Assembly: GCA_031213475.1 (NCBI GenBank)
Contig: JARUPZ010000007.1
Location: 10,501,458 to 10,565,457, forward strand
Origin: Nereocystis luetkeana
Taxonomy: Eukaryota; Sar; Phaeophyceae; Laminariales; Laminariaceae
Length of the DNA: 64,000 nucleotides
Reading direction: 5' to 3'
Shown here: positions 1-63,400 of the stretch, in pieces
Numbering within the stretch: position 1 is the stretch's first letter
Layout: every line of letters starts with the position of its first letter
Made by a program: the position numbers and the translations under genes
Notes under the pieces: generated by a model
The model's input: only the letters and a program-made list of their open reading frames with translations
The model's database searches: none
What the model was told of the DNA's origin: nothing

Positions 1-96
1 GGGTCTTTGGGTGTGCGGCGGATTGGGGGTGGGGTTGGCGTATATAGTACTCTCGTCCTTCAGGCAGGTGTAAGCCGCTTGGCGTTTGGGTCGCAT

Positions 97-149
97 TCAT
101 CTCCCCCGGAGTTTTTGAGGGGTTGTTAGGTTGATACACGGGGGGGGGT

Positions 150-180
<31 letters not shown>

Positions 181-395
181 ACACGTGTCATGCATGGCCG
201 CAGTTCGTATGACCATATAGACCCTCGCATCTCTACAATACCGGGACGGAGCTTGCGTCGGGCTTTCACCGACCAGGCGGACATCTGCTTGCACCAAGCG
301 CGACGCGCCGTGAGGTGTTAGGCGAGTCGCGGGAAGGGTGAGCTGCATCCTACCAAGAAACCGCTTGTGAGGCGGACTTTCTTGCATTTAGATGT
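97..395 (-). repeat. Dispersed repeat R1, copy at left edge
   Basis: It carries the R1 core (CATGCATGGCCGCAGTTCGT, GGGACGGAGC, GCGACGCGCCGTGAGGTGT). On the plus strand it begins with a run of about 35 G (141-179), i.e. poly(C) at the end of the element when read on the minus strand. Confidence 0.7.
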
Positions 396-616
396 TTAGA
401 TGGCAGCTTCAAGTCAAAGGGGAGGGGGGGGATCACCCCAAATACAATGACCGGAGACCTCCGACACGTGCGTAGAGCATGGTACCATTTGTTGTCGTAG
501 TACTGTCCCTCGTCAGAAGCGCCTGAGGACGCGACCGCACCTGGCGTATTTCTTGTCGATATGTATATACCAGGGTTCCCCCCACGGGGTTAACAGTTTC
601 CACACGTCGGACAAAT

Positions 617-785
617 ATGACATCACGATCTAGATCACCACTACCTATATCATCACCATCTAGATCATCACGATTTAGATCATCACGATCTAGATCATCA
701 CGATCTAGATCATCGCGATCAAGATAATCGCGAACTAGATCTAATCACCATATAGATCATCTATAGATAGATCATCTAGATCCTA
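617..785. repeat. Tandem CATCACGATCTAGAT repeat
   Basis: About ten imperfect copies of a 15-18-base unit built on ATCATCACGATCTAGAT. No gene signal inside. Confidence 0.85.
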
Positions 786-898
786 ACCAGCCGTTATGGT
801 ATGCTGTGCAGGATCTGCACGGTACAGATAGATCCAATCCAGGAAACAAGTGCTATGATAGATTCGTGCAGGCTGTACGGCTCCCCACCCCGAACGAT

Positions 899-991
899 TT
901 ACCGGCAGATCATGACCTGTGAGGACCGGGGGTTTGTCCGACGTGTGAACAGTTCTTTTCCCCCCCCACTTCTCTGTCTTGCGCCCACGGA
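899..991 (-). CDS. Possible last exon of the coiled-coil/IQ gene
   Basis: After the acceptor AATCTGCAG a phase-0 frame runs SVGARQRSGGGKELFTRRTN to a TAA at 899-901. It would close the gene with a 30-codon basic tail. Evidence is the acceptor, the phase and the stop only; the true last exon could lie outside the window. Confidence 0.28.
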   Translation of the reverse strand, partial: SVGARQRSGGGKELFTRRTNPRSSQVMICR

Positions 992-41304: not shown

Positions 41305-42631
41305 AGGCGCTTGTCTATCGTTACTAATATTAATAGCTGCCATCGCCGTACAACAGCAGCCGGCGAGCTACTTATTTATACGGTCGTAGGGGGAGTCCCT
41401 GTCACCCAGTGTTTATCGGAGAGGTGCGATAGGTAGGTGTCAAGCCGACGACTCTGTAATCTCGTTGAAAGAGCGTCTGTGGTGAGGTAACCTGGCGCTA
41501 TAGCTGATTCGAGCACGAGTACACACGCCTATTGATAGTGAAATCTCGACGAGAATGAAGGCATGACTATTTTAATTTGGAAAATACGAAAACTCGTTAA
41601 CCGGTATTCTTGATCAACAAAAGCGTTTCGCTACTGCGAGTACGAGTACATGCGACACATCTGAGTTATGCGTACTTTTGAAAGTGCCAATCGACCTGCG
41701 CAGATCGTTGATCCGCGATAATTTTCCGTCGATGTGGCGATCAGACAGCGGTGGTTGTTGTCACTCGATGACTATGTGAGGGGCACACCGCCAGTACAGT
41801 ACGCCAACAAGACGGTGATGAACAGACCCCCACCGTTTCGTACTACATAGTCAAGATTACGACACCAACTACAACTACTGTCAATCTCATCGGAATCAAC
41901 GTCACATAGCGCATCGTGCATCATGTATGCATGCATCGTGGTGGGGCGTCTATTTCATTCACTCTGAGTTGTGTTTTTTTTTGTGTCGTTGTCCACCGGT
42001 CTAAAACAACGGCTGCCTGCGCACGACGACGTCGTCATACATCATCGAAAATATATAGACGCCGTTACAAACGAAACGGCGGTGCCATAACGGCAAAAAT
42101 ATTTTAGGAAACCCTGGTTTGCACCATCTGCAAAAGACTACAGGTTTTATCTTCACGTCGACCGACTCGCGCTCCAGCGCAAAGCGCAAACAGCTCTAAG
42201 CAGCGCAACCCCCGGGACGCTCGCGGAAGCTGCAATGCCGACCTATAATGAGGTGAGGCGAAAAGTGCAGCAGGTGGAAATTGCAACCCACCTGATTCGA
42301 CTCCTCTTTTGTTCCTGCACCGAAAAAATTACATGATGTGGAATCTGGATTGCTGTAGAAAAGCACCGCAACTTCCAATTGCGGTGTTTCGCCGCAAGCG
42401 AAAGCACGCGTCCGAGGCTCAGCCAGCTGAGATTCGGCACGGAGATAAATTCGATTCGCGACAAGAACCCCCCTCTTGTTGGGAGCGAACGGTCCTCCGC
42501 CCCCGCCGTTCCGCCGGTCATTGCGTCGCTGCCCGCAACCAGTCAGTTTTGTTCCTGACAGGTCCCTCCCTCGATGATGAAGAGACCCTCGGATTTTTCA
42601 CTCGACCTTTCTTTTTGTTTTGTCTGTCCAA
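41305..42631. promoter_or_regulatory. Divergent intergenic region, coiled-coil gene / histone H1
   Basis: The 1.3 kb between the two proposed start codons must hold both promoters if both starts are right. I see no clear TATA box. The H1 side (42.42-42.63 kb) is GC-rich, then T-rich just before the ATG. No exon was recognised here. Confidence 0.45.
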
Positions 42632-45600
42632 ATGCTAAACAAACCACGGGAGCAGATGGCGTTCGAGGCAATCCTCACCCTGAAAGAGCGGAGCGGCTCT
42701 AGCGTGCAGGCTATCAAGAAGTGCATTGTCACCAAGTACCCCGACCTCGCCTTCGCCCCGCACCAGCTGCGCAGCGCGCTCAAGAAGGGGACGTCCACGG
42801 AGAAGTTCATCAAGGTACGATATAAACGTCGGGCGATATTACTACTCTTGCCACGCGAAGGGAGCACCAGCCCACGTGGCCCCGGGCGTGGCTTGATGTG
42901 ATGGCCTCGATTTGTGTATTATTTTGTGTCTTTTTTTTGTAGACCCCTCCATATTTTCCGGTCTTGTGCGCGGGGTTGATTGGCGCTGGCCGACAAAGAA
43001 AGCAGTGCCGCCGCCACAGCATCTATGCTCTGGTGCGCTCCGAGCAAAGGCGAGGAGACCCCCGCTCCCGTTGCTGACTGTTGCCGTGGTTAGGGCGGGG
43101 CGGGGCGGGGCGGGGCGATAGATGCCTGTGATTGGACGCGAGCCACACGAAGATTTTTACCAGGTGTGTTTCTTGTCGTCAGTCACTATTAATACTACTG
43201 CTGTGGTATCATATATATGGTCCCGAGTATAGGCGGCTGTTTTCCATTGTTGAGTTTTCGGCCTGTGGTCGCTCGCTCGCTCGCTCGCTGGCTGGATGCA
43301 ATTGGCCCCTACAGCAGTATTAATAGTAGTAAATTCTTATTTCAACGGCGGGAGAAGATCAAGCTTGAAGGCGATCGACACACACACGATAAGCAGGCGC
43401 CACCGGCACCTCGGTGTCCGTCGCAACCAGAACGGGTTGCCGCCAAACGCGCAACCGACGGAGGGAGGAGTGTGATTTGTATCATCTCCAGCAGCAGCGC
43501 ATCCCGCAAAAAGGAAGGGCCTCGTCGCCGAGGCTATGAGACTCTCGTGGTGGCAGGCTGCTACGGGTACAAGTTACAAACAGCAGGAGCAAAAACTGCA
43601 AAAATTGGGTTCCCCTCCCCCCCTTTTTTTTGCGGTCTTTTTTCTCTGTTTTCTCATGGAAATGTGCCAAACGGCTACATCCGAATGCGCATAAAGCCTG
43701 TACTTGCAGGCATAATGCATACCAGGTACGTCCGAAAAAGTAAGGGCCGTTTGGATAGCTATATATAGCAATATCCAAACGGTTCTTTCCTTTCCGGACA
43801 GATTGGTACTTCGTGGAAAACTACCAGGTGTAAAAAAAAAAGTTCACCAGTCTCAGGCAAAGAAAACGAGTGAACGTGCTGAAATATGTCGAATTGAGTG
43901 ATGTATGTTGAGCCACACAAACCTACCACACCCGGTACAGCACCACACCCGGTACAGCAGTATGCACCTTATGATATCACACGGGGTGGTAAGACAACAC
44001 CCCTCCCCCTGGGACGAATTTTCCTTCCGAGCCGGTTTTCGCGAAAATAACGGGGGCACACCGAACCACAATAGGGGTGGGCTTTCTGCTGTAGCGAATA
44101 TCTCGCTGAGACCTTTCCACAGGCGGCGCAGCGCTCGGCGTTAGTACCGCTGTCCCCGTTCCTCAAGAGATAAATAAATAAGCTTCAGAAATTCGTCCTA
44201 TTTATAGCGGGTGTGTTGACTCTGCGCGCTCCGTGTTGTTCGTTAGCGGAGCAGATTAACGAAGAAAGAGAGCGCGACTTTTCCTCCGGCAGTAGTTTCG
44301 ATGCTTGCTGTACATTCGACCTCCGAGGGCGCTCGAAATTGATCAGATCATCTACCGATTCCAGATGCAGTTACTCCGGCAAGCTCAGGCGACGGCGATC
44401 CAGTGGTCCCAACGGAGATGCGTAACATCTGTTGCAGTGTACTTTTGTGCTTTTATCTATTTGTTTGTTTATTTATTTATTTATTCATTTGTTATCTTCA
44501 CTTTTTACTGCTGTCCATCTTAAAAAACTCGTACAAGGTTTTATCCTCAGCGATCTTCTGGACAAGCCGCGGTCACAGGTGTCAGTCCCTTCGTCCCTTC
44601 TCCCCCCCGGTATGATACGTATCGACATTTTTGTCGCGCAGAGGGTTCAGCATTCCCACTGCTCGTCGATTTTCATCGATCGTTGCTAACTCACGCTCTC
44701 GCGCTTTCCGCTAATCATATTTTTTCGCAAGAAAAAAGTCCTTACCGTACGAGTACGAGTATGCACTCGGTGAGACTCGAACCCACGAGATTGATCTTAG
44801 TAGGCACGCGAATTACGTACCAAGCCACCATGGACGCCCGCTACTGCTTTGCTGTATGAGTACAAACTGTGCTGTATGAGTACAAACACTGAGGGTTTTT
44901 TTTTCAGTTTTTCAATACATAGTCCCGAATGAAAATCCTGCGACGACGTTATCGGACGATGAAAGATGATACACGATGTAAACGACGATCGGCGATGCTC
45001 GGAATATTTAGCACTGGAGGGATTACGTCGAGGTGCTTTCGAGAGGAGGGATGTGCTACTTGTGCACACCTTGTATGGTACTCTGCCGGAATACGTGTCC
45101 ACATAAGTTGTACCAGTACCCCTCTATATAAGCTGCAACGGGAGCTATAGGTTAAATTGACAGACGACACGAGAACGTGGAAGTGTGGTGAGCTTAGGCT
45201 TTATTTCTACCAATCCGCCGGAGGTTGAAAAAAAAAAGAAGGAAAAAAGTACCCTTCTAGGATATAGAACTTGGACAAACACTGGGTGTAGTGATGTAGT
45301 TGGGTAGGACTGATGTAGTTGGGTAAGAATAAGGTTAAATGTGAAAACAACACACACGTTCGACAGAAGCAAGAGAAGTGCCTCCGTGCGCCAATACTGG
45401 TGCTCTCTGTGCGTATCCGTTGGAAAGCGAAGCAGCAGCAGCAGTATTACTGTAATAGCAGCAGTAGCAGCACTACTGGTGTAGCAGCAGCACTACAGCA
45501 GTAGTATCAGCAGCTGCACTACAGTGTAGCAGCAACAGCAGCAAGGCAGCACAACAAAGCAAAAGGCAGCGGCCGGCCTAAAACTATAATCTGCTGTTTA

Positions 45601-48600
45601 GTGTCGAACGAAATGAACTCCGGTTTCTCATACATACCTGGTGCTACTGCTGTATTCATACATACTATGTCATATCTCATACCCTGGTGCATGTATACCG
45701 TACGCACCAGGCACGCTATAAGAATACACGAAATACTGAATACCGATCCCATGTTTGTTGTTTGTTTTAATGTTGAATGTTGAATATTGAATTTTGAAGC
45801 CCGTCTTGAGGGCGCGGTGCGTTTAGCGTTCAGCTTCCAGCGTTCAGCGCTCAGCGACAACCAGAAAAATTGCCGGTGTATAAACCTGAGCACTGGCAAC
45901 TGCCACAGCTCTTGATTGTGCCGCGCTGCGCGGGCTTCGCATATCGGCAAATCTGCGAAGGGGCCCCTATCAATATTTATTTTGCCCACCGAAACCGAAT
46001 TAAAGAGACGCGGCGAGCTGGTTTTTTGTTCAACCATAGTTTTTACTCTTCAGCTCTCTGGATATGCCGTGGCCACAGGGGTCTTCCCTCCTCTCCCCCG
46101 GTATCAACACGCCTCCAGTCTTATCGCGCAGAGGGTTCGGCGTTCCCACTGCTATTAATATTAATAGTCGATTTTACTCTTAAGTTTGCTCTCGAGCTTT
46201 CCGCGATGAGAAAAAGGCACGTGAACTTTTTTTTTGGGGGGGGGAACCGGGCAGAGGATTTGAACCCGGGCCCTCATGCGGTACGTGCTGGTATCCGAGG
46301 TTAACCTTTTCAGGACTACAGCCCCTTTTTGGGACAAAGTTGAGTGGTTTGTCCCCAAAACGGGACTGCAGTCCTAGAGGGGCTAGGGGCGACCGTTTTG
46401 TCCTGTGATTCCAGCATTCAGGCCCGCACCTTTTACGAGTGCAAGGTCCTCACATGAACACGATATTTTTTTTTATGTTTTTTGTTTTTTCAACCCTCCA
46501 CCCTCCACTCCCACTCCACTCCACCGTCGAAAGTCGTGTCTCTTTGTCCCCCTCTCTCATGCTTGACCGCCAGCAACAGCTTCCTGGTGTTGCTGTTATC
46601 TTCGTATGTGTACGTAGACCCGGCGGCATGCATCAGCGCATCCAGTGTACGCCGTGGATAAATTAAAAAAACACCATGGTAGGTGGCAGAGATTCAAGAT
46701 TTTCTATGAATAGTCGTTAGTATTGGATGGTGCAGCGGGTCGTTTTTTTGTTGCGTGGTGCGTACCTGGTGTTTATTTAGTATGAGTAATTCTCGTTTTT
46801 TTTTTCAAGTTTTTTTTGTCTTTGCGTTGCTGGGTGTTTTTCGTCCAGCGCATGGTAGCTGCGTTTTTTGTGTATTTTTAATTCTTCGGTTGACACGAGT
46901 ACCAAGGGTAGCTGCTTCCTTTGTTGTAGTGAGGACGATCGATCGTGAGTCTCGTGGACGAAATCACTGCCTGGTGTAGTAGTACATGTGCGTGGCCCTT
47001 GTCTGTCGCGGAGTGGCGTCCAGCTTGGACCGCCATCGGCACAGAGCTTAGCGAACGGCTCTGTCCCAAGTAGTCTGTGGTCACTCTGTAATCGTCAACG
47101 TATGTACCAGCACTTGTGATATGTGTTTATAGTAGTTAGCCTTTTTAGTACTACACTTCGCCGAACCGTCTATTTGACTGTAATTGCAAGTAAGTTTGTA
47201 CCCAAAACGGGATGCAGTTCTAAACAAAGGGGTTGAGGGAGCGTTCTTATAGGAGACTTTTCTTTTTTGCCAATTCGTTTTGGCGAAAAAGGAAAAAAAA
47301 AAACTCAGGAAATGTAAGAGACAGCGAAAAAACGGGAAATCTTGCGAGTAGCATAATGTAAGATTTTCAGAAAAAAAACAATACTGGAGAAAAAGCAACG
47401 TACCCGTTGATACAGCAGTAGTAGTAGTCCGAAAATATACAGCTACATGTGGTACTGCTGTGTACTTCGTGTGAACATACCAGGTACTGCCCGGGGTTCA
47501 GCAGTGCTGGTCATGCTTCGTATTCACGTACTGCAGTGGAAAACTACAGCTGCATCACGAGCTTACAAAATTAACTTGACTGTTCGTGGCGTTTGTTTCG
47601 AGCATACAGCAGTACATGACTATTAGAACCGCAGCCCCGTTATGGGGAAACCCCCCTCATATCCCAAGTAGTTTGTCCTCAACACGGGGCTGCAGTCCTA
47701 AATAGGTTATTAATCTCTCATTATGGGCCAGGCTCGAATTGTGTCAGGCAGGGTGTGCCCTACTCGTACTTTAATTTCAGTATGAAAAGGGCAGTCACGG
47801 CTATTAATAGTCCAAACCTCGACCCTGAAATTCTTGAATCCAAAAATTGCAGTTACTGCTGCCGTAATCGCGCGTACTACATATACACAACTGCCTGATA
47901 GAGGTAAGTGTGGGAACGTATACAGTTAGTGCTGTGAATTGTGCGCGTGTATCACCGAAAAAAGTGTTCGGTGCTTATTTTTCATTTTGTCTAGACACCG
48001 AGAGATCGCAAGTGACAAGGCCGAACGACATAATAGACAATCCGATCATGTTTTCACATTTCCCCCGAATCTACCCATAAGTGGCTACTTCAATCGCTCA
48101 GAGCTCAAAATCGCACGTTCTCTTGAAGGGAGTCGCCGGAGCGCACTTTTAGGTTTTTCCAACGCACCTGGTCATGTTGTATTCCACATTCCACAGTTTG
48201 TATGGGTGCAGGAACCTATTGTTACAACGGGGCAAGATTTACCCAACCTGTTTTTAAGAATTTATGGTGTGTGCCGTATATGTTTGCCCCAAAACTTGCC
48301 CCAAGGTATTGAAGAAGCATACCAGGTACCAGGTATATAACATTTCCTTTTTTCTAATCAACCATACAGAAAGAAATGCGAGCTTTGTTGCCAGCCATTC
48401 GAATTCAGTTCTTGATACCAGGTATACTATTACGGGGGACCATAGTTATGGCCAAATATTTGTTATTAAAAATGGTTAAATATATAGTTTTTTATGTATA
48501 CCATAGGTCCTATTAACTATGGTCCCCCGTAATAGTGGTAGGCTCTACCGACGTACTATTAATAGGAGGCAGGGAGGACGGAGAGAGGGGGTCAATCTCG

Positions 48601-51600
48601 AGTACCTCGTGCTTGATGCGCATAGGTGCGCGTGTAAAACAGAGGCATGCGAGCAGAATGCACGGCACTGTCCGCCGCCTATTGATAAGACCTAGCCCAC
48701 TGTAGCTCGTGTACTGCTGTTGTGGTGTTTGCCGCACTGGTTTTTTGCCCCAAGATTTGCCCCCAAGATCCCGAAAAGGTGGCATTTTTTTTTTGTAGAT
48801 GTTGATCGCCTCATTCATTTCGAAAACAAATGGCGGGAACGCTTGCCGGAATGTGTAGGCAGGTGCGTGGGAAACACATGGAAGAGAGCTCTTGCAGCAG
48901 TTCCGTTCAGGAGAACGTCAGATTTGGATATCTACGCGATTGAAGTCGCTATTAATGGGAAGCAAAGGGGAGATCGGTGGGGACTAACTGTAAAAACGAG
49001 GTCGGATTCTGTGACGTTCGGACAAGGTCATGGTGATAATTACACCCAAAAATGCCTGATGTAACGAACAAACGGGTAACGTAAATTAGAAAGACGTTCG
49101 CCCCCTCTTTTCTCTCGCTTGCCTCTGATGCGTTGGGGCTATTTTATCAATGGTTGGTATTTATTTTCGGTCGCGCGTATGGTTTAGTTGGTTTAGTTAG
49201 ATACGACGTATTCGACGTGCACTTCTACTGACAGTTTTTTTACTCTAATTAACCCTAAGACACTTCTGGTAGTTGTTGTATACGTGCATACGCTTGACGA
49301 TTGCGGCGGGCGTTTCAGAAGGACTTCATCATGCTATGCGAACCGTCGTGGTCACCGAATCACAGCATGACAGCTGACGTATTTAAAGGGTTCAACACAA
49401 AATAGTTTCGAGGTTATATGCCACTCACCACCGTCATTATTTTGGTCTGTTATGTTGACGATGCCAGGTTTACGTTGCCGGACCTTTTGTCACTTGCTTT
49501 TTATTTTACCACTGCGACGGATATAAGTAAGAACCGGTTTGGGGTGTGAATACGTGAGAAAAAAAAAAGAACAAAACGACGCGTACATTTTCGAACAGAG
49601 TGGTGTATTTCGTTTTCAGTTCGTGGTGGTAAGTAGAGACTGCAGGTTTGGCATTACCCCGTTGGTTTAATACGAGTGTATATTATACGTATTTTTTCGT
49701 CGATTTTGTTGTTCCTTGTTTTTGTTTTTGTACAGCATCACTTGCCGTGCGTTTCTGCACGCTACGTAACAATGCTTTCGTCGTGCACCATTTTGATATC
49801 GCCGCGACTTATCTTGTCGGCTGGGTCCGGTTGATTGTCCGTTACTATAACAAGCTGTATATAAACCACATCGCGCTGGGATTTTTTTTTTACTGTGTGT
49901 CCCCCCACTTGTGCTCACCGGTTGCAGTTCAGCATATACGATAGTGTGCTTGTTCCAGTTGCAAACGCTTGCGCGTACAGATTCAAGTCATTGGTGTACT
50001 CCTCGTATTTGTGAGGCATATGAGGCCTGGTTTAAGTTGAGTCTAGTCTGCCGACCGGGTAGGTTTCGTCTTCCAACTCTTTTCGGAAAACGCTAGCGAC
50101 GCGTTTGTGGTCAGCGACAAGGTTTTCGACGCGGCTCGTGGGTTTTTATACATGCAGGTTGGCTTTTTTGACACCCCGTTGCGCTTGCCCCCTAGTCCCC
50201 CGTCGGGCAGTGCGCACACCGGAAAATGAAGTGATATTTTAAAGTTGTCATGCATATGCAAGTCCGCCTCACAAGCGGTCCTTCGTAGGATGCGGCTCAC
50301 CCTTCATGCGGCTCCCGGAACACCTCACGGCGCTTCGCGCTTGGTGCAATCAATGTCGGCCTTGTCGGTGAAGCCCCCGGCGTGCTCCGTTCCGACATTG
50401 TAGGAGTGCGAGGATCTGTGATCATTCAACTACGGTCATGCTTGATATGAGTACCCCCTCCCCCCCTCGGGTGTTGCATATCAACTAATTCGACGCCGTC
50501 ATCCATATGCCGAAAAGTCTGCCACACAATCGATCCCCAGCGGGCTGCAGCTCACCCTACACCTCACGGCACTTCGCGCTTGGTGCAAGCAATGTCGGCC
50601 TGTTCGATGAAAACCCGACTTGCACCCTCTCATGCGAGGGTCTTACCGTCATACGACTACAGCCATGCATGACATGGGTACACCCCCCCCCCCCCCCCCC
50701 CTCGCAGGGTCTATGGTCATACGACTACGGCCATGCATGAGATCGAGCACATCTCTCCTATCGAGTACCCCCCCCCCCCCTCCTCGGCGAGGTGAACAAC
50801 CTTTACTCCGCACAAGGGGGAATGATCGTGTCACTTAGTGTTTATGGTAAGGTACCCACGAGGCAGTTACGTAGTACGCTCATTGCGGTCTCTGGAAATG
50901 CCTACACCGGAAATTAAATCAACTCATTGAAGCTGTCATCCATATGCAAGTCCGCCTCACAAGCGATTCTTGGTAGGATGCAGCTCACCCTTCACGCGAC
51001 TCGCCAGACACCTCACGGCGCTTCGCGCTTGGTGCAAGCAATGTCTGTCTGGTCGGTGAAAACCCGACGTGCTCCGTCCCGGCATTGTAGGGATGCGAGG
51101 GTCTATGGTCATACGACTACGGCCATGCATGAGATCGAGTACATAATTCCTATCGAGTACACCCCACCCTCGGCGACGTAAATCAATTATTCGGCGCTAT
51201 CATCCATTTTCAAGACAGTCCACCTCACAAGCGGTTCTTAGGAGGATGCACGTCATCCTTCATGCGACTCGCCCAACACCTCACGGCGCTTCGCGCTTGG
51301 TGCAAGCAATGTCAGCCTGTTCGGTGAAAACCCGACGTGCTCCGTTCCAGCATTGTAGGGATGCTAGGGTGTATGTATGGTCGTACGACTACGGCTATGC
51401 ATAATAATGAGCCCCCCCCCCCACTCCCCGTTGATGCAAATCAATTAATTCGACGCAATCATCCTTATGCAAGAAAGTCCGCCTCACAAGTTGGTAAGAG
51501 TAGGATGCAGCTCACCCTTCACGCGACTGGTCGAATCCCTCACGACGCTCCGCGCTTGGTGCGAGCAGTGTCGGCCTGGTCGATGAAAACCTGACGTGCT

Positions 51601-53580
51601 CCGTTCCATGCGAGCGTCTACGGCCGTATGCCTATGAACATGCATGACATGAGTCCCCCCCCCCCACCCCCAGTGATTCGACGCTGTCCCATCTGCAAGA
51701 ATGTCCGCCTCACATACGATTCTTAGTAGGATGTAGTTCACCCTTCATGCCAATCGATGAACAGCTCAAGGCGCCCCGCGCTTGATGCAATGTCGATGTG
51801 GTCGGTGAAAGCCTGACGTGCCCTGTCCCAGCACTACAGTCTGTAGGGATATGTGGATCTACAATCATACGACTACGGCCATGCATGACGTAAGACCCCC
51901 CCTTCCTCCCCGGGGATATTTGATGACGACCTAGGATGAGTTTCTGTTGTGTGTTTACCTTTCTGTTTCTTCCTGACCCTGTTCGATGCTACTATCGTGT
52001 GTTTCTACGGGGGCCCATAGTTCATAGGACCAAATATTGTTGGTAAAGATGGTCAAGCATATAGGTTTTTATGTATACCATACCTGGTAGGTCCTATTAA
52101 CTATGTTCCCCCGTAATAATATATATTGTCACTACTGGCAGGCTCTCCTGTCGAAACTGTTGCAACCGGTACCTGGCCGACGTCCTACCCGCTATATTCG
52201 CTAGGCGAGACATGCCTGCCAACTAACCATCATCCCACCCCACCCCTCCGACCGCACCCCGCCTTCGCAAAGGTGAAAAATTCGTATAAGCTGAGCCCCG
52301 CGGCGAAAAAGCCTCCGCCGAAGCCGAAGAAAAAGGTGGTGAAGAAAGCGCCGGTAAAAAAACCCAAAAAGAAAAAGCCGAAGAAGGTCGTCAAGAAAAA
52401 TACCACCACCAAGAAAAAGACCGCCGCCGGCGCTGTCGTCAAGCGAACGGTCAAGAAGAAGCCCGCCGCTACCGCTGCATCTCCCGGTGGGGGCACGGCG
52501 GGATCGTCTCCCGCGGACGCCGCTCCGGCTCTTGTTGATGGGGCGGTGGCGGCTCCCGGGACCCCCGGGGCTGCGGGAGGGGGGGCACAGTCTGCGCTGC
52601 CCGCTTCCGCTAAGAAGAGCAAAGCCTCCGGTACTCCCAAAAAGAAGGTGGTGAAGAAGGCGAAGGCTACGATTATCAAGAAGAAGTCCCCTGCGAAGAA
52701 GGCCGCGGCTGGAGTTCCACTAAAGAAGAAGCCTACGACGAAGGCGGCAGGAAAGACAACACCAGTCAAGAAGAAGACGACCGGGGCGGCTGGTGCTGCG
52801 GCGGGGGGAGGGGCGGGGTCGGCAGGAGGAAAGAAAAAGGTCGCCCCGAAGAAGAAAGACGCCAAGCCTGGTGCCAAGAAGGGCGCCAAGCCTGGCGTTA
52901 AGAAGACCGCCAGCCCTAAGCTAAAGAAGGACCTGACGGCCAGCCCCAAACCGAAGGGCGCGGCCGCAACAGCACCCAAGAAAAAGAAGGATCAGGTTGG
53001 AGCAGCAGCATCAGCACCCAAGAAGAAAAAAGATCCGTCGGCAGCGGCACCAAAGAAGAAACAGGATCAAGCTGGAACAGCAGGCAAAAAGAAAAAAGAG
53101 CCGCCTGCCGCAGGAGCACCCAAGAAGAAGGTTGCCCCCCCCGCACCCAAGCAGGCTGCTGTATCCAAGCAGGACCCGAGTACTGCACCCGAGGACCCTA
53201 AGAAACCCGAGGAACCTCAGGGATCCCAGGGGGCCCAGGGGGCCCAGGGGGCCCAGGGGGCCCAGGGGGCCCAGGGGGCCCAGGGGGCCCAGGGACCTCA
53301 GGGACCTCAGGGACCTCAGGGACCTCAGGGACATCAGGGACATCAAGGACCTCAGGCCCCGAAGGAGCCTAAGGAGCCTAAGGAACCTCAGGCAGTTAAG
53401 GAACCCCAGATGTCTAACGGATCTGGGGCACCTGCGGCACCCGCGGCACTCGCAGCACCTGCGGCACCTAAGGAACCTCAGGGGCCCCAGGGTTCCCAGG
53501 GGCCTCAGGGACCTAAGGAGACTCAGGAACCGAAGGAGCCTGTGCCTCCGGTGCCCTCTGCGACGGTCACCCAGTCGTGA
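42632..53580 (+). CDS. Linker histone H1 with very long intron and Gln-Gly tail
   Basis: Exon 1 (42632-42814) codes most of the winged-helix globular domain: MAFEAILTLKERSGSSVQAI, KKCIVTKYPDLAFAPHQLRS, ALKKGTSTEKFIK. Exon 2 (52273-53580) continues VKNSYKLSPAAKK, the usual end of that domain (FIK-VKNSYKLS), then an about 270-residue Lys/Ala/Pro tail of KKK and KKP blocks, typical of DNA-compacting H1 tails. The last quarter departs from this: about seven AQG then several PQG and HQG triplets, followed by KEP and APAAP blocks. Both splice sites are phase 0 (AAG|gtacga; GCAAAG|GTG). The total is about 496 residues, long for H1 because of the tail. The intron is 9458 bases. The ATG at 42632 gives MLNKPREQ before the domain; the ATG at 42655 or an unseen upstream exon are alternatives. 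The protein would bind linker DNA on nucleosomes in the nucleus. Confidence 0.85.
43741..43784. repeat. Small inverted repeat
   Basis: GGCCGTTTGGATA and TATCCAAACGGTT surround an AT-rich loop (GCTATATATAGCAA). It lies in the H1 intron next to a TACCAGGTA word (43720-43728). Confidence 0.75.
44545..44715 (+). repeat. Dispersed repeat R3
   Basis: GATCTTCTGGACAAGCCGCG ... TTCAGCATTCCCACTGCTCG ... CTCACGCTCTCGCGCTTTCC, highly similar to the inverted copy at 30.9-31.1 kb. Confidence 0.75.
44765..44845 (-). other. tRNA-like sequence (box A and box B)
   Basis: On the minus strand, GTGGCTTGGTACG (box A-like, 44816-44829) and GTGGGTTCGAGTCTCAC (box B within a T arm, four pairs plus one G-T) lie at tRNA spacing. 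The acceptor ends pair only in part. A decayed Ser/Leu-type tRNA or a tRNA-derived retroposon head is likely; a working tRNA is doubtful. Confidence 0.3.
45431..45546. repeat. Imperfect CAG repeat
   Basis: Alternating CAG, TAG and CACTA words, with TACAGCAGTA at 45504-45513. In the H1 intron. Confidence 0.8.
46045..46210 (+). repeat. Dispersed repeat R3 with doubled TTAATA insertion
   Basis: As the 44.6-kb copy, but CACTGCTCGTCGA is replaced by CACTGCTATTAATATTAATA-GTCGA, two TTAATA units inserted at a TA. Confidence 0.7.
46295..46390. mobile_element. Foldback element, CTGCAGTCCCGTTTTGGG family
   Basis: AGGACTACAGCCCCTTTTTG and GTCCCCAAAACGGGACTGCA form the two arms around GTGGTTTG. It ends CCTAGAGGGGCTAGGGGCG. 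No open frame. Confidence 0.7.
47135..47235. mobile_element. Foldback element, decayed copy
   Basis: TTTTTAGTACTACACTTCGC and GTACCCAAAACGGGATGCAG are the arms. The left arm is strongly mutated. Confidence 0.5.
47625..47710. mobile_element. Foldback element, CTGCAGTCCCGTTTTGGG family
   Basis: Arms GAACCGCAGCCCCGTTATGG and CCTCAACACGGGGCTGCAGT around CCCAAGTAGTTTG, ending CCTAAATAGGTTA. Confidence 0.7.
48430..48532. mobile_element. MITE, TTACGGGGGACC family (in H1 intron)
   Basis: An intact copy with TA on both sides. The left arm has lost a few bases after CATAGTTA. A TACCAGGTA word lies at 48416-48424, directly beside it. Confidence 0.88.
50247..51900 (+). repeat. Array of R1 repeats in H1 intron
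   Basis: Six to seven head-to-tail units of about 230 bases, starting near 50247, 50500, 50926, 51190, 51435 and 51675, with a partial unit at 50700-50780. Each runs CATCCATATGCAAGTCCGCC, CCTCACGGCGCTTCGCGCTT, GGTGCAAGCAATGTC, GTCATACGACTACGGCCATG, and ends in a run of C of variable length. The units differ by many substitutions, so the array is not recent. Confidence 0.85.
52005..52115. mobile_element. MITE with internal CCTGGTA insertion (in H1 intron)
   Basis: A nearly full copy that differs from its sisters by seven extra bases: ATACCATA-CCTGGTA-GGTCC against ATACCATAGGTCC elsewhere. The insertion creates TACCTGGTA at 52081-52089. It lies 150 bases upstream of the second H1 exon. Confidence 0.85.
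53212..53352 (+). repeat. Coding tandem repeat GGCCCAGGG / GGACCTCAG in H1 tail
   Basis: Nine-base units GGGGCCCAG (Gly-Ala-Gln) repeated about seven times, then GGACCTCAG (Gly-Pro-Gln) repeated five times and variants with CAT (His). The frame is kept throughout, so the repeat expands as collagen-like Gly-X-Gln triplets. The second part (53341-53540) repeats the theme with AAGGAGCCT. Confidence 0.88.
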
Positions 53581-56500
53581 TCAACCTGTCGAGTGATCTT
53601 CTTTATTCCCCGGTATTTATTTCAGCGGGGGCGGGAAGGGCGTGGGAGCGGGGTGGGTGGGGGGGGGGGCTTTTTTGTTGTCGTTGGTCGGGATAGCGGA
53701 ACGCGAAAAACTTGCAAATCGTCGCATCTCCACGTGTTGCTGCGTACCTGATAGCCACCCACCCTCTTGTGAAGTACAGACGAACGATTAAACCGTCTGT
53801 CGTTTTGGTTCGCTGGTTTTGCGGCTTGTCCGTCCCGCCGGTGGTCTCGAGCGTTTTCTGCTTCGCGGTTATTATTTCTTGGACGCCGCAGCTGCGGCCG
53901 CCAGTAGCCGTCGACGTCGCGGATCCTCACGGCAGAGAGCAAACAAGTGCTTCGTTGGGGAACTGGCGGTTGTTTGCATTAATGCATTTGTCGGCGCATT
54001 TCGGCACACTACGGTTGACTCGGTCATCGCGACGGAGGGTCGGTGGATGGGTGGGTGTGAGTCGGCATTTTTCTGCTGCTTCCAGGTGGTTTGATTGAAC
54101 GGGGTAGGTATGGGCACGGACGGCCGCTTCGGTTACTATTTGGTCCGGAAACGGTGACGATTCAAGTTGTTGCTGTTGCTGCTAGTGATATTTGTCGGAG
54201 GGTTCACCCGGTTCGACCCCTCGGTGACGAACCGCGATCGTTCATGCGTCACTGCTGTCGGCCCTCGCCCCCCCCCCCCCCCCCCCCCCGCCTTCCCCGC
54301 TCCTTTCGCCACTCTGTACGGTAAGGGACCTTACTCGGGGGACGTTTTTAGAGGTGTATATCCCGGTGTCCTCTGTCTCTTGTACATTTTTTCGGCGGTG
54401 CTTTGCTTTCCGAAAGACCTCCGGTTTTTACGGACCGTCCTGTATATTTACGACGTACTGCTGTGGTGGTGACTAGCAGCAGCAGTAGTATTTAGTGATG
54501 CTGTTGCTGATGATATGCTGCTGCTGCTCTACCGCTACACCCTCTTTTTTTGTTTCATTTTTGCTGTGTTCCGTGCCGCGCCCGTTGCTAGCTGTTGACT
54601 GGGGACCCGCCCTACTCGGATCTTGTCACAAGGACGCGAGAAAGACGCGTTGTTTTTAGTCGCATGCACGTGAAGTATTCCGTTTTAAGGCTATGTAGAG
54701 GTGTGCACCGAGTTATTAATAGAAATAAGTAAGGAGTACGTATTATTTTTTTTTCGCGTTTTTTTTTTTTTTTTCGCGAATAAGAATAAGGGAAACCAGA
54801 TTGATTTTTGAGAACGCGACGGGAAGTCTGGACTCCCGCCTACCCTTTCATGGGTGTGTGCCTATGGTTCAAGCGCGCGCAGTACTTCGTTAGATGCTAT
54901 CGCCCTGTCCGCTTTGCCCTCAGACCGCCTCATACGAGGAAGCGGTGGTTCGGCGCTTTGTGGTAGGTTTGCTTTCGTTGTTATAATATACCCCCATTTG
55001 GTCGTTGGCTATATATACTCCATGCAGTGACGGTCTGTGCATCATCTTCTGTTCGTCTTGTTCCCCCTTTCTGTTTTGTGGCGGTCACAAACGTTTTTTT
55101 TTACTGCGATGTGCCGTTTGCGTTGCGCTCAACACGACAAAAGCGATGGAGCTCTCCCTTGGCCAAACACGCGCCCGATGAACTGCGATTGAAAGCTTAC
55201 TTACCGTTACTATGCCATCGAGAGCGGGGCGCGTGCAAGCCTTCGTGTATTTGCAGGGTGCGGGGCGTGCAGCAGCAGTAGTAGTTGTCCTCGTGTGGCG
55301 TGGACCGGTTGGGCTGCGATTGGCCGTCAACATCTATCTCTTTGAATTCGATGTGTCTTTCGGATTGCATGCTGTGATGAAAAAAAAAAACTTGTACCGG
55401 AAGCTGGGGCTACTAGTTCTACCCGGAAATATATGCTGGTGTCGGGCCTATCTATTTTGTCAAATAGACGAAGATCCGTCAAAAATAGCAGCAGCTACCA
55501 CCACTAGCGTGTCGGCGGCGAAAATGCGCCGAAGAGACCCGTATTTTGTAGGCGGATGTTGTCGCCGTTCACCGCTGCAGGTTGATGCTTATTTCTGAAA
55601 TGCAGCGCCAATTTACGGTATTGGCGTGCTGTTCAAAGTGTACTGTTTTCTATTGATGTTCAACAGTCGGACGAGGACGAGGCTTACCTTAACGTCGCGA
55701 ACATGATAATTCCAGCGTGCGCAGTGCCACGTATATACCACATTTCAAATGAAAAAAACAGATACTCTCCGTATCGCACACGGCGAGATACTCGTACGAA
55801 ACGGATCCGGCGATAGATCAAACCTTTTTTTTGGCAAATCGTGCCGTTCGGTCCACAGGGGACCCGCGAAGGTGGGGCTTGGCGCAAGCAGCTTGCCTCC
55901 GTGTCAGCTACTCCTGCTCGTGGCCGCAACGCCGAAACTACCGTCCTACCGAGTCATGAAAAAAACGTGGGTCATGCCTGCTTGGGGCGAACTGGGCGGC
56001 TAGTTAAAGATATCGGCGGCTTTTTTAAAAACTCGGTGGCCCGTTTCAAAACTGTATGGAGTTTTACTAAAAGGGTTCCTTCCACTCTTAGTTTATTAGT
56101 CGCGCTGGGGAATCAAATAGTATCTATAACTACGTACGCCGGATGTCTTTCCATCACACTCGCTCCTTGCCGGCCGTTCTCTCGATTCGATCGGGACCAA
56201 GTGTTGAAGCGACCGGACGCTGAGGAAGACTGGAGGATATGTTGAATGGCAGGCGCACCTGTCTGCTTTCGGCCGATGATATTTATGCGTCGGGAAGGGA
56301 AGGAGGGATCTTACAACGCGGGCCGCCGACGAGGAGTACAGGAGGAAGCGTCTACTCTTGTTACTGGAATATGACCGGGAGGCCCGCTGTGTGCCGACGA
56401 TATTTATGCGTCAGGCTGGAGCTAAGCTGCTGCATGGTGGCTCTAGGATTTAACACGCTGAATCGTCGCGACTCTCCTGACCAGTGTTGCGTGGAGGGTC

Positions 56501-57420: not shown

Positions 57421-60400
57421 AGAGCCGAAAGAATAATACGTACGCTGACGTTCCTCCGACTCGAACAGGGTTTGTCGGGGCAACCCTCGCGTCGTCAAAT
57501 GTGTGCCACTCGTCCACAGTACCGCCGCCTATTCGGCTGCGACAGTGGGCTGTGTAGTGCCCCCCCTGCAACCCCCCCATGTGGTTACATACCGCGTACA
57601 GCTCGTACGTGGGAAGCGGAGCGACAGAGCGGTGGCCGCCGCCAGTCCCTCTGAGAAGCCGATCTCTCACCCCCGACTGCTGCTCCGATTGCCAACGATC
57701 CGCCCCACGTCCACCACCACCACCACTACCCCCACCACTACCACCACCCTCGTCACCGCCACCACTGCCACACACGTCACCGGAGCAAAGCGCTCCCGGA
57801 GTAGAATACGGGGCTAGATCGAGCCCCGACACAGGGAAATCTACCATGGTTGACAATTTTTCCCGGCTGGTGGAGTTGTACTGAAATCGCTTGAGGTGGA
57901 TGACCAGTACCGAGGGATACCGGTGCACGGCGAGACACTTGGAACTTTTTCGACGTCGGTTGCACCGCGCGCAGACGGGTCGGTTGTCCCCGTCGAGCGT
58001 TTCCTTGTTGGTGAACGCACGAAGGCAATCTTCGAGGGTGCACCCTTCCCGAGGTACGCCGCCGCCTCCGTTTGGTTCCTGGCAGAGGGCGTACGTAAGT
58101 ACGTATGTAGCAGTTGTGTCATTAAATACTAATGATGTGATACAATATCACCATTAGTATGTTTGCCATCTGGCAAAAGTGCATCATAAGCTTTAACGTT
58201 AAGCACTCATACGAAACTCATTCCCCCAAAAAAAATGAAACAAGCGAATCTTATGTATTCGTTTTTATTTTTGTTTTTTTCCCTCCGACGACGTCCACAA
58301 GTGAACTCGATCTTCATGGTCGGTAGGAAAACTGAAACCCCAATATGTGATAGCATCAAGCTGGTTTGCCGTCGAAGCCGAGCTATGTGGTGAAAACACT
58401 GTTAAACTACAGTGTGGAGCGAGGTGGGCAAGGGAATGAGATGCGCGTTCTCGGGAGGCTTCGTTTCGGTGACAATGGGCATGGTCTCGGCGTTTTGTTT
58501 TAAAGTTGCCACTTGGACAGCGAGGATCGAACCAGCGATCTGACGGTTCCAGAAAACGATGTCCTGTCGACGACGCCAAGTGCCGAGGGTATTATACCCC
58601 TGAGCTGCTGGTAAAAGGTTAACGCACTTCCCACCCAGGGTAAGCCTTACGAGGAATATCCTTATACAAGCTTTCCCCCCTTCTGAATGACGGGGCCTTT
58701 AGTCTTCGTATGGAGTCTTCCGTACGTGCCAATCACACCCAAACATTTGAACAGTCTCTGCGGACCCAGGGGAGACGATATTTTGGTGTACCTGGTATAA
58801 TATACCAGTGGGAGATATCATCACTTCCTGTCAAAGGTTGTCTCTAAGAAGTCGATCCGAATAGCTTCATATTTAGGAAAGGGGCGGGGCCTTACATTTC
58901 CGAACAGAGTGGTACACCACATCTAGCGTTCTTGCAGATTCGGGAATATTTTCTCTGCTGGGTACGTGTATTCCATGTAAAGGGAAGGTGGGCCAATCTA
59001 CAATATGTTGTGGAACGCGGCCGCGGAGGTCGAGCGCTAGCGTAAGAAACCAAAGTAGGTCATTCTGAGGGAAATCGTGCGTCATGCACTCATGTCGAGT
59101 CTGCAGCCGAGCAATGCAGCTGTCATCGTGTCGAGAGCAAACCTGAGCCCTTTCGCTGAAACCGGCCGTTGTGTATACTAAATCATCTGAGCAGGGTGTG
59201 GACAGGAGGTTTCCAACTGTTTACTACTTGCCACCTTGAAAGCAGGGACAGTCCGCTAACGAGGTTTGCATCGGAAAATGCGGCAAGGGAACACACTTCT
59301 GAGAAGGTATTCTACCTGTTGAGCTAATTTCAGTCACCTTCTCACAAAATAAATGGTTTTGGGGGCTGGAAGCACCCAATCTCGTCAGCATTGATCCCCG
59401 GGGCACCCCTCCCCGTCACATACGAGTACGAGTACTAACCCTTGAGGCCTTCGTCACGCTGAAAAACAATTTTAGGTAAACTCACCGTGCCAGCTCTCGA
59501 GCCAGCCACCGATCCCCGCCGACCCGCCCCTATCCCACCACCCCCACCCGCCGCCGCTGCCCCATCCGATTGCCGACTAGGAAGCGGCACAGAGAGGTCA
59601 AAAAAGGGATCGAAGCAGTGGCTGACGTTGCCGCAGCTCAGGCAGGAAATACGGCTCTGAAGCTGGCCGCAAAACATCCTTGTGATATCGCTGTCGTTCC
59701 GAGCAAGGTGCAGAGACCACGCTCTGTCCGCCTGGTCCTCGGCGGAGAGCCTCGACATCGCCTCGTCGCTCAAAGGCACTGGGGTGGGAGGGGAGGGGGG
59801 TCCGTGCGCGTCTTGTTGTCGTGTTGCCGTCGAGCTCCCCCCCCCCCCCCCCCCCTCGTCGGCCTCGTCTGTTAAGGTCTTCTGCAAGCCCGTCCAAAAA
59901 AAAGCGCAAGAACTCCTGCCGTTTCCGCGAGGGGTACGTAGCGTAACGTGGCGAAGGCTCTGGTGGGTATTTTGTTGCGAAAAACATAGCCTATCTTTGA
60001 AAACATCATCCGTGACGAACGTAGGCGCGAACGCAGCGCGACGAAAAGCGAAACACACTAATCGGAAGGGTGGCTGATGATGCTCTGTGGCACCTTGAAC
60101 CCCACCGAGCCCCAGCATTTACGGGGCCTTTTCCGTGTTTGCCAAATCCTGTGTGGCGGTACGGATTGTTTGCGTAGAAGAACCGAATGCTGTTTCTTGC
60201 GTTTTCTTCCCCCACCATGTTGGCCGGCTTTGTCGAACGCCACATATGCTCAAGTGGGACACACGTAAGTGGCTAGCCGCTCCGGATCGCGTTAGCTGAG
60301 TACACGTCCCCTATAAGGAACACACACATTTTGTGCAGGGCAGTATACCTTCGGCGTCGCTTCTTCTTCGCCTAGGTCTCAAGAGTTGTCTTAGAGTTGT

Positions 60401-63400
60401 GGCGTGTTCTGCCGTTTTCGTGGTATCTACACGTTGGCTCCCTCCAACTACACCCACGGAAATGCTCGAGCTTGCCCAGCATAGCTCTTCTTCTCTTGCA
60501 ATAACCTATGGCCAGAAAATCTCAGTGGGACTTTCGAGGGGGAGAGGGGGGAGGACACACGAACTCCGCCCTCTCTAGACAGCATTTGGAGGAGGCATCG
60601 CAAGGAATAATGTTCCCGTCGACGTTTGCCCAAGAAAAGGTGGATGTGGAAACATAGTAGTGTAACCACCACACAGGAACGTCGGTATGCTGCTGATACG
60701 ACATACATTTTTTTCTTCCACGCCGGCATCATGCGGCGTGTCTTCTCGTCAACATCTCTACTTAAGCTAGGTTGAATGAGGAGTAGGCGTTTCCTCGCTA
60801 GATTTTCGAGGCAAGGGTAAATTCATAAGATTGGGATCAGCTTTTTGACAACGACACGTAAAAATCAGCCTTGGATAGCCCGCCTACCTGGCAATCTTGC
60901 TGACCGTATCCGGAAAATTGAGGCGCGAACTTTCCGACTTGGCGCTTCACCTGAGGGAATGAAGTGGGACCGGAGTGGGAGAGGGCGTGGGGAGGAGGCT
61001 CCGCGTTAAATCCTGGACTGGGTGACGCACTATTAATATCAGTAGCACTGGGTTGGCAGGGTGGTTGTCGTGCAGTATTGATATCTTCTGTAAGTAGTGA
61101 CATGATCTTTTCGAAGCTGGGAGGAGTTTGGAATGGACAACCTTGTTGGAGCTCTCCCTTTGTACGAGGAGTACAAAGGGGGATTACTTGGAGTCGTGAA
61201 CGTTTGAAGCACGAAAGTAAGACCTTGTTTTTGGCATGGTGCGTTTTTTCGGCTGATCAGGCGAGAGCACCAACCATCGTGTTAGAGGCACTGCTACGAT
61301 ATATCAGCGTTTTATCATGACCGATTGGATGCGGGCCAAAAGGAATTGCTGCGAGCATCGTTTGACACGACTGACAACACAACCACACGGAAACGTTGAA
61401 GCTCCTAATCAAAGACAGCCACGCTGGAGTGTTGCGCATTTGTGCAGCGGCTCTGAACTCGCGTACGGCAAGGACTCAATCATTGACGAATGAGAAAAGC
61501 GTTCGTGAGGTCGACCACGATGTCTGTCCTAGCTGCCGAGTCGCCGTTGCTGCCTGTGATACTCGAGGGATACCTCGCCGCCATTTAGGAGCACCTGTTG
61601 TTTTTTTCCCAACAATGCTAAATACGCTAACAAGGTTGCGGGTCGTTGAGAGGGAAGTAACTGCAGAGGACGGTTTCGTACCTCGAACCTTTCGTGTGTT
61701 CTCGTGCTGTAGCAAGCTCCCTTCACTGTGGGTCGAGCGTTTCTCGTCAAATCAGCTACTGTTGTCGCAGCTTTATGATATGCACTGCTGTTGTCCGATG
61801 TCATTTGCGCAAAACACGTGTCATACAAACCCCACCCCGACAAAAAATGATATAGATAGATCTTGCAGGATCATACAAATCAGGAATTTATCTGCCCCGA
61901 AAAAAATTACTAGACCCTAAAGTGGGGAATCTTACCGGTCCGATATGTGCAATACATCGAGCCAGCACTCGACGCGTGTTTTGCCTTATAGGGGAAGCTC
62001 CTAACCTTTCTGAGGCTCTATACTCACGTGCATATAGTATACTAGCTCTATACCTCATCCACAAAAACTGAACAAAACACTAAATCAAGGTCAACCCCTT
62101 TAGAACTGCAGTCCCGTTTTGGGGGCAAACCACTCAAATTCCAAGTAGTTTGTTCCCAAAACGAGACTGCAGCCCTAAAAGAATAAACCACCTCATTGCC
62201 TAGGTAGATGCACCACAAATGCTGTTGATAAAAAATACGAATGATGCTCTAACGATGTCGGATACGTAGTGCTTGAGCGTTGTCAGTGCCCTTAAGGAGC
62301 CCGCCAGTCATAAGTAGTTTGGCCAAAAAGTGCTACGTACGTCTATCGTGGCAAGAGCCACTTACCTGAAAATACAGTTAGCTTAGGAGATTCCATTTTT
62401 CGGGCACGGCAAGGTCTCTTTTGGCCATGACATACTAGATTTAGTGTAGGGGGGTAGTCGGTCAAGGGGTCAAATCGTGGCCTCCTATTCATATCGTATT
62501 TGCTCACCTGAGCAGGAGACACATTCGAGTGGGCAGGCGACGCCTCCACTAATCGCACCAACTCCCCGAAAGCCTCTGCCAGGGCCCCTCGGGTGGGACT
62601 CTTCTGGCAGAGGCGTTGCTCGTGCAGGCGTTGCCGGAACAAATCGACCAGCGCGTCGGTGTGCAGCAGGCACTGCAGGCACGCGTTCATGAAGCACGTG
62701 TTGCCTAGGTTCTGCAAACCGACTAAACACTCCCCGCGTCCGACGTCAGCGTGGGCAACCTTCGCCCCCATGGTTGTTGCCGCCCTCCCACAGTTCAGGC
62801 CCACTTCGGTGCCATTCTGCTTGCAGGCGCCGCCGCTACCGCTACGGCCACCGCCACCGCTTTCGCCGCCGCCGCCGCTGCCGCTGCCACTGCCGAAGGG
62901 TTCTCGTCGCCCCGAGTAACGACCAGTCTCCGATTGACAGCCCCCGCCACCTCCACATGTTAAATACGCGTGATCCTTCGACGGACGTTCCCCTCTGTCG
63001 CTATTTCTATCGCTCGGCGTTTCCTTTTCGGGGAGATGCCCCGACGGAAATCTCTCCGTCGCCAAAGCTGCCGCCGCTGCCGCCGCCGCCGCTGTCCGAA
63101 GATTCGAGTGCCCCGAATCTCGATCCCGATCTCGATCTCGATCTCGCTCTCGCCTCAGTCTCATAGCCGACGAAGAAGAACCTCTTTCGTCGCGGCCCCC
63201 TATCGCTGCCCTTGCCCCCCCACCCCCCCCCAGCTCTTGCTCGGCGTTGACACCCGAACCATCGATCGACGGTAAGCGGTCGAGCTCTAGAGCCGAGGGC
63301 GCTGTGGAGGGCGCGGCGCGGGTACGCCCGCTTCGACCCTCCTGCTGCTGGTTGTCCCTGCTGCCCTTACCGCTACCGCTACCGCTACCGCCACCGACTC

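Follow-up and report, generated by a model that had tools for sequence, protein, structure and literature searches.

Recurrent TA-bounded words in a Nereocystis luetkeana contig as probable excision footprints of TA-inserting elements

Within a 64,000-nucleotide stretch of the brown alga Nereocystis luetkeana (GenBank assembly GCA_031213475.1, contig JARUPZ010000007.1, positions 10,501,458 to 10,565,457 of the forward strand; hereafter the window), the word TACCWGGTA, in which W is A or T, occurs 20 times and, judging from sequence comparison, is very probably a footprint left by the excision of a cut-and-paste element, most likely one of Tc1/mariner type, that targets TA and duplicates it on insertion. 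An original prediction, made from the letters of the window, had listed 14 positions, all of which carry the exact word, and had set at least 14 as the total; the six extra sites lie at 7666, 9729, 9924, 17070, 18129 and 58789. Its proposal that insertion at TA leaves a duplicated TA plus a five-base remnant is supported as the best explanation by exact 7-base gains within repeats and by flanks restricted to TA, and is further backed by a palindromic target signature, by tandem words that share a TA and by the excess of a second word, TATTAATA. Two families of miniature inverted-repeat transposable elements (MITEs), termed MITE-1 and MITE-2, enter the argument, the former as host of the gains and apparent source of TATTAATA, the latter as a candidate source lineage of TACCWGGTA.

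The observed density (about one word per 3.2 kb; 11 with T and 9 with A at the centre) compares with a mean of 0.52 in dinucleotide shuffles (n = 100, standard deviation 0.69, maximum 3), which bears out the earlier estimate of well under one per 64 kb by chance, and with a mean of 0.46 in order-3 simulations (n = 100, maximum 3). No case with C or G at the centre occurs in the window, and the CCWGG core combined with each of the 15 alternative flanking dinucleotides gives only 0 to 2 counts apiece; because TA bounds alone are enriched around this core, the feature is TA-CCWGG-TA. The putative scars in the window are listed below.

7666..7674, no strand, scar word TACCTGGTA, exact match
9729..9737, no strand, scar word TACCTGGTA, exact match
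9924..9932, no strand, scar word TACCTGGTA, exact match
17070..17078, no strand, scar word TACCTGGTA, exact match
18129..18137, no strand, scar word TACCAGGTA, exact match
19126..19134, scar word TACCTGGTA; one TA in common with TACCTGGTG, an imperfect second word at 19133
20674..20682, scar TACCAGGTA, 7-base gain CCAGGTA at GTCCTA/TTTA in a partial MITE-1 copy
27209..27217, no strand, scar word TACCTGGTA, exact match
27415..27423, no strand, scar word TACCTGGTA, exact match
28476..28484, scar word TACCAGGTA; a degenerate MITE-2 end (plus strand) starts 34 bases away, at 28442
29491..29499, no strand, scar word TACCAGGTA, exact match
30807..30815, scar word TACCTGGTA, 2 bases from one TATTAATA word
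31144..31152, no strand, scar word TACCTGGTA, exact match
43720..43728, word TACCAGGTA coinciding with the left end of a MITE-2 copy, either a scar or an altered element end
47478..47486, no strand, scar word TACCAGGTA, exact match
48320..48335, two words TACCAGGTA (48320, 48327) with one TA in common, exact tandem
48416..48424, scar word TACCAGGTA, adjoining a MITE-1 copy
52081..52089, scar TACCTGGTA, 7-base gain CCTGGTA at CCATA/GGTCC in a MITE-1 copy
58789..58797, scar word TACCTGGTA, between two ubiquitin hydrolase-like open frames

MITE-1 also occurs in the foreign ends of two public contigs of bacterial metagenome-assembled genomes, L001 (JALZVY010000272.1) and L002 (JALZWD010000061.1), in which alga-like DNA (about 7400-7898 and about 1-3640, respectively) is joined to bacterial DNA and which probably represent chimeras or contaminated assemblies. 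The separate public record L002 contains three TACCWGGTA and three TATTAATA words within its first 3,640 bases, and neither word was found in the 11,701 bacterial bases of the two contigs.

Insertion alleles come from MITE-1, the repeat family in which the original prediction had placed its two key sites. The ends of this TA-duplicating family read TA-TTACGGGGG...CCCCCGTAA, and its fuller copies span 104 to 117 bases (TA, TTACGGGGGACCATAGT ... ACTATGGTCCCCCGTAA, TA). A pattern search of the window, L001 and L002 placed TA directly outside 18 of 22 ends, and the copies inspected showed no 3-bp direct repeat at their flanks, which read TA...TA. The 11 matches in the window, two of which may be one copy, are these.

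52004..52119, plus strand, scar-bearing MITE-1 copy of the original finding
20627..20705, plus strand, scar-bearing partial copy
3684..3800, plus strand, copy without scar (empty-site comparison)
6655..6770, no strand, copy without scar
6895..7007, no strand, copy without scar
10838..10950, minus strand, copy without scar
13657..13760, plus strand, copy without scar
20453..20480, no strand, fragment outside the alignment, possibly part of the copy at 20627
27631..27745, plus strand, copy without scar
28846..28958, plus strand, copy without scar
48426..48537, plus strand, copy without scar

In a gapped self-comparison of repeats that was blind to the word (513 alignments kept), a length of 7 was the most frequent among gaps longer than 4 (39 gap rows, 23 distinct entries). 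Nine of these 23 entries map to three exact CCWGGTA gains, at 52083, 20676 and L002:2764, the remaining 14 being other changes or alignment shifts. The MITE-1 alignment, whose 17 rows represent 15 copies (two are present in both orientations), shows the gain at a TA in three copies, two from the window and one from L002, with sister copies lacking it: the gain at 52083 is found in one of the 15, and those at 20676 and L002:2764 occupy the same MITE-1 site in two of the 15 with different centre letters. The exact 7-base gains claimed for the words at 52081 and 20674 are thus seen in the alignment as well, together with the third case in L002. A further word beside a MITE-1 piece (L002:2824) was not counted, as the alignment shows no clean 7-base gain there.

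The surroundings of the words carry a signature of their own. Reading outward from the scar TA, T stands at -7 in 20 of 38 arms and A at -6 in 23 of 38, and a second TA at -7/-6 is present in 12 of 38 arms compared to 2.7 expected (P = 9e-6), two of the 12 being both arms of the site at 52081. This spacing, first spotted in a base table and tested afterwards, was the strongest of 12 tested, and it persists (11 of 37, P = 4e-5) when the arm common to a MITE-2 end is removed. Such a pattern is what a transposase target preference would produce and is not expected from a binding motif.

By the same logic, MITE-1 itself seems to leave a footprint. If three bases of each end were kept and joined over a common TA, the product predicted from its ends would be TATTAATA, which occurs 14 times in the window compared to 0.30 (order-2) or 1.07 (order-3; maximum 6 in 100 simulations) expected. 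Among the 16 xy-TTAA-yx palindromes this word alone is clearly in excess, and among the 16 TA-xy-yx-TA words the excess is confined to it and to the TATATATA repeat. Its flanks show C, A and T at -1, -2 and -3 in 15, 14 and 14 of 26 arms, in agreement with MITE-1's own flanks (12, 10 and 7 of 18 TA-flanked ends). A palindromic target preference is present at both words: TA at -7/-6 for TACCWGGTA and TAC-TA for TATTAATA. No TTAATA gain appeared among the 6-base gaps of the repeat self-comparison, and the origin of TATTAATA is therefore argued from words and context. Its sites follow.

3902..3909, TATTAATA, implied MITE-1 footprint
12161..12168, TATTAATA
17244..17251, TATTAATA
28186..28193, TATTAATA
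30797..30804, TATTAATA
41328..41335, TATTAATA
43187..43194, TATTAATA
43318..43325, TATTAATA with TA in common with TACAGCAGTA (43310)
46153..46166, two TATTAATA (46153, 46159) with one common TA
47802..47809, TATTAATA
48557..48564, TATTAATA
54714..54721, TATTAATA
61031..61038, TATTAATA

We envisage that a Tc1/mariner-type transposase would mobilise short non-autonomous copies, inserting them at TA with TA duplication, and that exit of the element would leave behind both TAs together with roughly three bases from either end. Ends starting with CCA would then give the broken ends ...TACCA and TGGTA..., the last bases of which host end joining would pair as an A:A mismatch; repair of this mismatch to A or T would yield TACC(A/T)GGTA, a gain of seven bases. 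Freshly made TAs could be hit again, giving tandem scars, and for MITE-1 the joining of TTA and TAA over a common TA would give TATTAATA. The CC(A/T)GG-type ends originally postulated for the missing element would accordingly be dispensable under this scheme, 3-nt CCA overhangs with an A:A mismatch being sufficient, although 5-nt CCAGG overhangs would be at least as explanatory. Among 15 joints of CCA and TGG tried, 3+2 alone is strongly enriched (20 compared to 0.51) and 2+2 and 3+3 are absent; lesser excesses are seen for 1+1 (TACGTA, 47 compared to 15), 3+1 (TACCAGTA, 6 compared to 1.6) and 1+0 (TACTA, 116 compared to 68).

A direct search of the window for CCW-ended inverted pairs flanked by TA, as the original prediction advised, was empty, whereas an all-versus-all comparison of 266 TACC[AT] starts (window plus the foreign parts of L001 and L002) uncovered MITE-2, a short, older palindromic family with ends TA-CCACTCTGTCCGG (family sequence TA-CCACTCTGTCCGGAAATGTAAGGACCGTTTGG). 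The window holds seven copies or single ends.

43720..43808, whole palindromic copy, right end CCGGACAGATTGG-TA, candidate source lineage
26055..26141 (right limit approximate), plus strand, degenerate copy, left end TA-CCACACTGGACGG
26441..26526 (limits approximate; start also 26443), plus strand, degenerate copy, left end TA-CCG
49507..49606, degenerate copy, ends TA-CCACT...AGTGG-TG
28442..28477, plus strand, single degenerate end, start TA-CAACTCTG
28788..28823, minus strand, single degenerate end TA-CCACTTTGTCC
58879..58914, minus strand, single end TA-CCACTCTGTTCGG

Ungapped, TA-anchored matches to the consensus at 19/30 or more number six, four of them the consensus seeds, compared to a maximum of 18 in 20 simulations; allowing one gap raises the number to eight, the reversed window reaching at most 17. 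MITE-2 may thus be the source lineage of TACCWGGTA, a link that we hold less firmly than the footprint reading, which is independent of it and loses nothing in probability when it is weakened. In terms of end bases, the MITE-1 pair TTA/TAA has its word in TATTAATA and the MITE-2 pair CCA/TGG has its word in TACCWGGTA, but the MITE-2 copies are old and their link is weak. The claim that the source element is absent from the window is accordingly modified: old copies of the form TA-CCA...TGG-TA, possibly of its lineage, are present, and since MITE-2 is diverged and most scars are exact, the direct donors would be younger relatives outside the window.

Several observations weigh against parts of this account. 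That the four seed ends begin with CCA is a selection effect, because only TACC[AT] starts were compared, and the other four MITE-2 ends begin with CCA (two), CAA (one) and CCG (one). The scar signature is shared weakly by MITE-2 (T at -7 in 6 of 8 ends, P = 0.005; A at -6 in 4 of 8, P = 0.11; TA at -7/-6 in 3 of 8, P = 0.016), and one of the eight ends also serves as the flank of the 43720 word; its removal lowers the values to 5 of 7 for T (P = 0.015), 3 of 7 for A (P = 0.24) and 2 of 7 for TA (P = 0.085). The age and divergence of the MITE-2 copies contrast with the exactness of most scars, and an A:A overlap of one base pairs weakly. The gains at 20676 and L002:2764 could be a single event if the two copies are sisters. 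For TATTAATA, the word had already appeared in lists of frequent words when its match to MITE-1 was recognised, which makes the agreement a fit and not a blind prediction. Finally, TACCWGGTG/CACCWGGTA occurs at 13 sites (for example 18110, 36466, 43158 and 45635) compared to 1.16 expected and lacks the scar target signature.

The strongest alternative keeps the footprint and changes the donor. An unseen element with CCAGG or CCTGG ends would, through 5-nt overhangs that pair except at a central A:A (or T:T), explain CC(A/T)GG at least as well as the CCA ends do, MITE-2 then being unrelated or a distant cousin; we consider this variant possible, if somewhat doubtful. Its pairing resembles that of the Sleeping Beauty footprint, which equals the 3-nt overhangs in the sections available of PMC7827188, it accounts for the A/T centre with four good pairs, and most scars appear younger than the MITE-2 copies. 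Set against this are the footprints of 0-4 bases given in the accessible parts of PMC7913693 and PMC9976928, the empty search for CCW-ended pairs in the window and the target signature weakly common to scars and MITE-2 ends.

The alternatives to a footprint of any kind fare far worse. A functional palindromic motif, such as a regulator site or a methylation-linked word spread by selection, would suit a near-palindrome in high excess, but it is very improbable given the three exact insertion alleles within MITE copies, the signature seven bases out, the excess of the unrelated TA-bounded word TATTAATA and the words with a common TA. Three such TA-sharing cases among TACCWGGTA, TATTAATA and TACAGCAGTA (classes A to C) compare to 0.65 expected (P = 0.024), which is at most suggestive. 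Expansion of CCWGGTA by slippage or tandem growth, as in microsatellites, could draw on the two doubled words of the original prediction, of which 48320-48335 is exact and 19126-19139 has an imperfect second unit (TACCTGGTG); it is slightly less credible still, as 17 of the 20 words lie in neither pair, each in different flanks, and the sister MITE copies have no prior unit where the gains occurred. Chance or an assembly artefact has a negligible probability, 20 words having been reached in none of the 100 shuffles, with a maximum of 3 in the 100 simulations, and the word having been found again in L002.

Footprints of the form TAC(A/T)GTA are left by Sleeping Beauty. In the available text of PMC7827188, the nicks made by the Sleeping Beauty and mariner transposases lie three bases within the element, and end joining leaves Sleeping Beauty with footprints identical to the 3' overhangs. 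Footprint lengths are given as 2-4 bases for Tc1/mariner and 0-3 for ZB in the accessible portion of PMC7913693 and as 0-4 for Passer in that of PMC9976928. On these partial texts, the system described here is like those of Sleeping Beauty, ZB and Passer in its TA target and duplication, end bases kept between the TAs, end joining and palindromic target preference; TACCWGGTA retains five bases between the TAs compared to the reported 0-4, whereas TATTAATA, with four, fits. Unlike in those systems, a single word dominates here, and the target signature consists of a TA located seven bases outward, in place of the ATATATAT of ZB (PMC7913693, in part) or the AAGTACTT of Passer (PMC9976928, in part).

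Stowaway-like MITEs, moved by mariner-like elements, are likewise described in the part of PMC4561436 at hand as short, non-autonomous elements with a 2-bp duplication whose footprints consist of element-end bases plus that duplication. The ends here, TTACGGGGG and CCACTCTGTCCGG, and the brown algal host set the present families apart from Stowaway. In grasses, the usual Stowaway end is CTCCCTCC. A rice survey that similarly catalogues excision products left in the genome found, in the sections available, mostly messy DNA-transposon excisions (8 of 94 perfect), with deletions, where present, averaging 18 bp and fillers averaging 13 bp (PMC4423477); the recognisable scars here, in contrast, are one uniform word, and a word count is blind to messy ones. 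In Ectocarpus, 17 Mariner-Tc1 families with almost 12,000 copies, most of them non-autonomous, are reported, and neither 'footprint' nor 'excision' occurs in the available main text of that paper (PMC12477816). A piggyBac origin (TTAA target, footprint-free excision) was ruled out by the TA target and the 7-base gain, and PIF/Harbinger (Tourist; 3-bp duplication, mostly precise excision) was set aside on the TA...TA flanks of the MITE-1 copies inspected and the footprints left behind.

Searches for outside counterparts returned little. Among the 30 listed of 217 papers that contain TACCWGGTA no title was transposon-related, and among those listed for a genome-wide footprint word in algae no title or abstract described one, subscription papers being mostly outside the coverage. 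In viral contigs the doubled word matched nine, none with a further copy except a third in L006; the MITE-1 core, the MITE-1 end and two MITE-2 end patterns gave 0 matches each, and an inner MITE-1 word matched two contigs, with similarity confined to that word. Rfam at gathering score gave 0 matches, and Pfam found no transposase in the 10 of 136 listed frames searched.

Other TA-bounded words are also in excess. TACAGCAGTA (class C), which is non-palindromic, occurs at 12 sites (for example 43310 and 47605) compared to 0.13 to 0.27 expected and at times has a TA in common with other words (39981, 43310); since 9 of the 12 cluster in 40-48 kb, it may have a local cause. TACWGTA counts 28 words, 7 of them inside 18-base tandem arrays, which leaves 21 outside compared to 6.9 expected for the whole window, and 7 of the 47 TACGTA words lie within one 30-base run. 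Simple scar decay as the origin of TACCWGGTG was found unconvincing: other one-base neighbours are near background (16 compared to about 10.5), and flanks without the signature oppose it (Fisher P = 0.005 and 0.009). The MITE-2 copy at 49507-49606, flanked by TA and TG, may be a clue to that word.

Apart from these, 18-base tandem arrays rich in TACAGTA/TACTGTA lie at 4010-4210 and 6513-6579, and another repeat family has gained seven TACAGT-like bases at 51832-51842, which may be a further footprint type. A long array of CGGGT units spans 8902-9157, and 52120-53580 encodes a lysine-, proline- and alanine-rich frame of 486 amino acids in which Pfam recognises a collagen-like repeat (Collagen, E 2.3e-7). 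The ubiquitin hydrolase pieces around 58789 are in separate frames, one above and one below the Pfam cut-off; the best named match of the first among the candidates scored is Discosporangium mesarthrocarpum (48% identity), and higher unnamed matches exist. L002:2952-3042 holds a short palindromic repeat with ends TTAACCCTTTTAGAACCGC, which we take to be piggyBac-like in its TTAA ends.

The kind of scar is known; what is unusual is the uniformity and density of the scars. We tentatively extend the argument, with rather less than even confidence, to several TA-targeting families that each leave a near-invariant footprint word, owing to end joining of unusual uniformity, and do so frequently enough for scars to exceed resident copies in number, the genome thereby preserving a readable, family-by-family record of past excisions (TACCWGGTA, TATTAATA and perhaps TACAGCAGTA, TACWGTA and TACGTA). 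With 20 and 14 words in the window compared to 11 MITE-1 matches and seven MITE-2 copies or ends, resident copies alone would understate activity. Excision is normally detected by comparing strains; if each family stamps its own word, past excisions could be counted in one genome, dated by decay and assigned to a family through end bases and target context. The uniformity of the scars is informative on double-strand break repair in these algae, in which the A/T centre would record a mismatch fixed in either direction.

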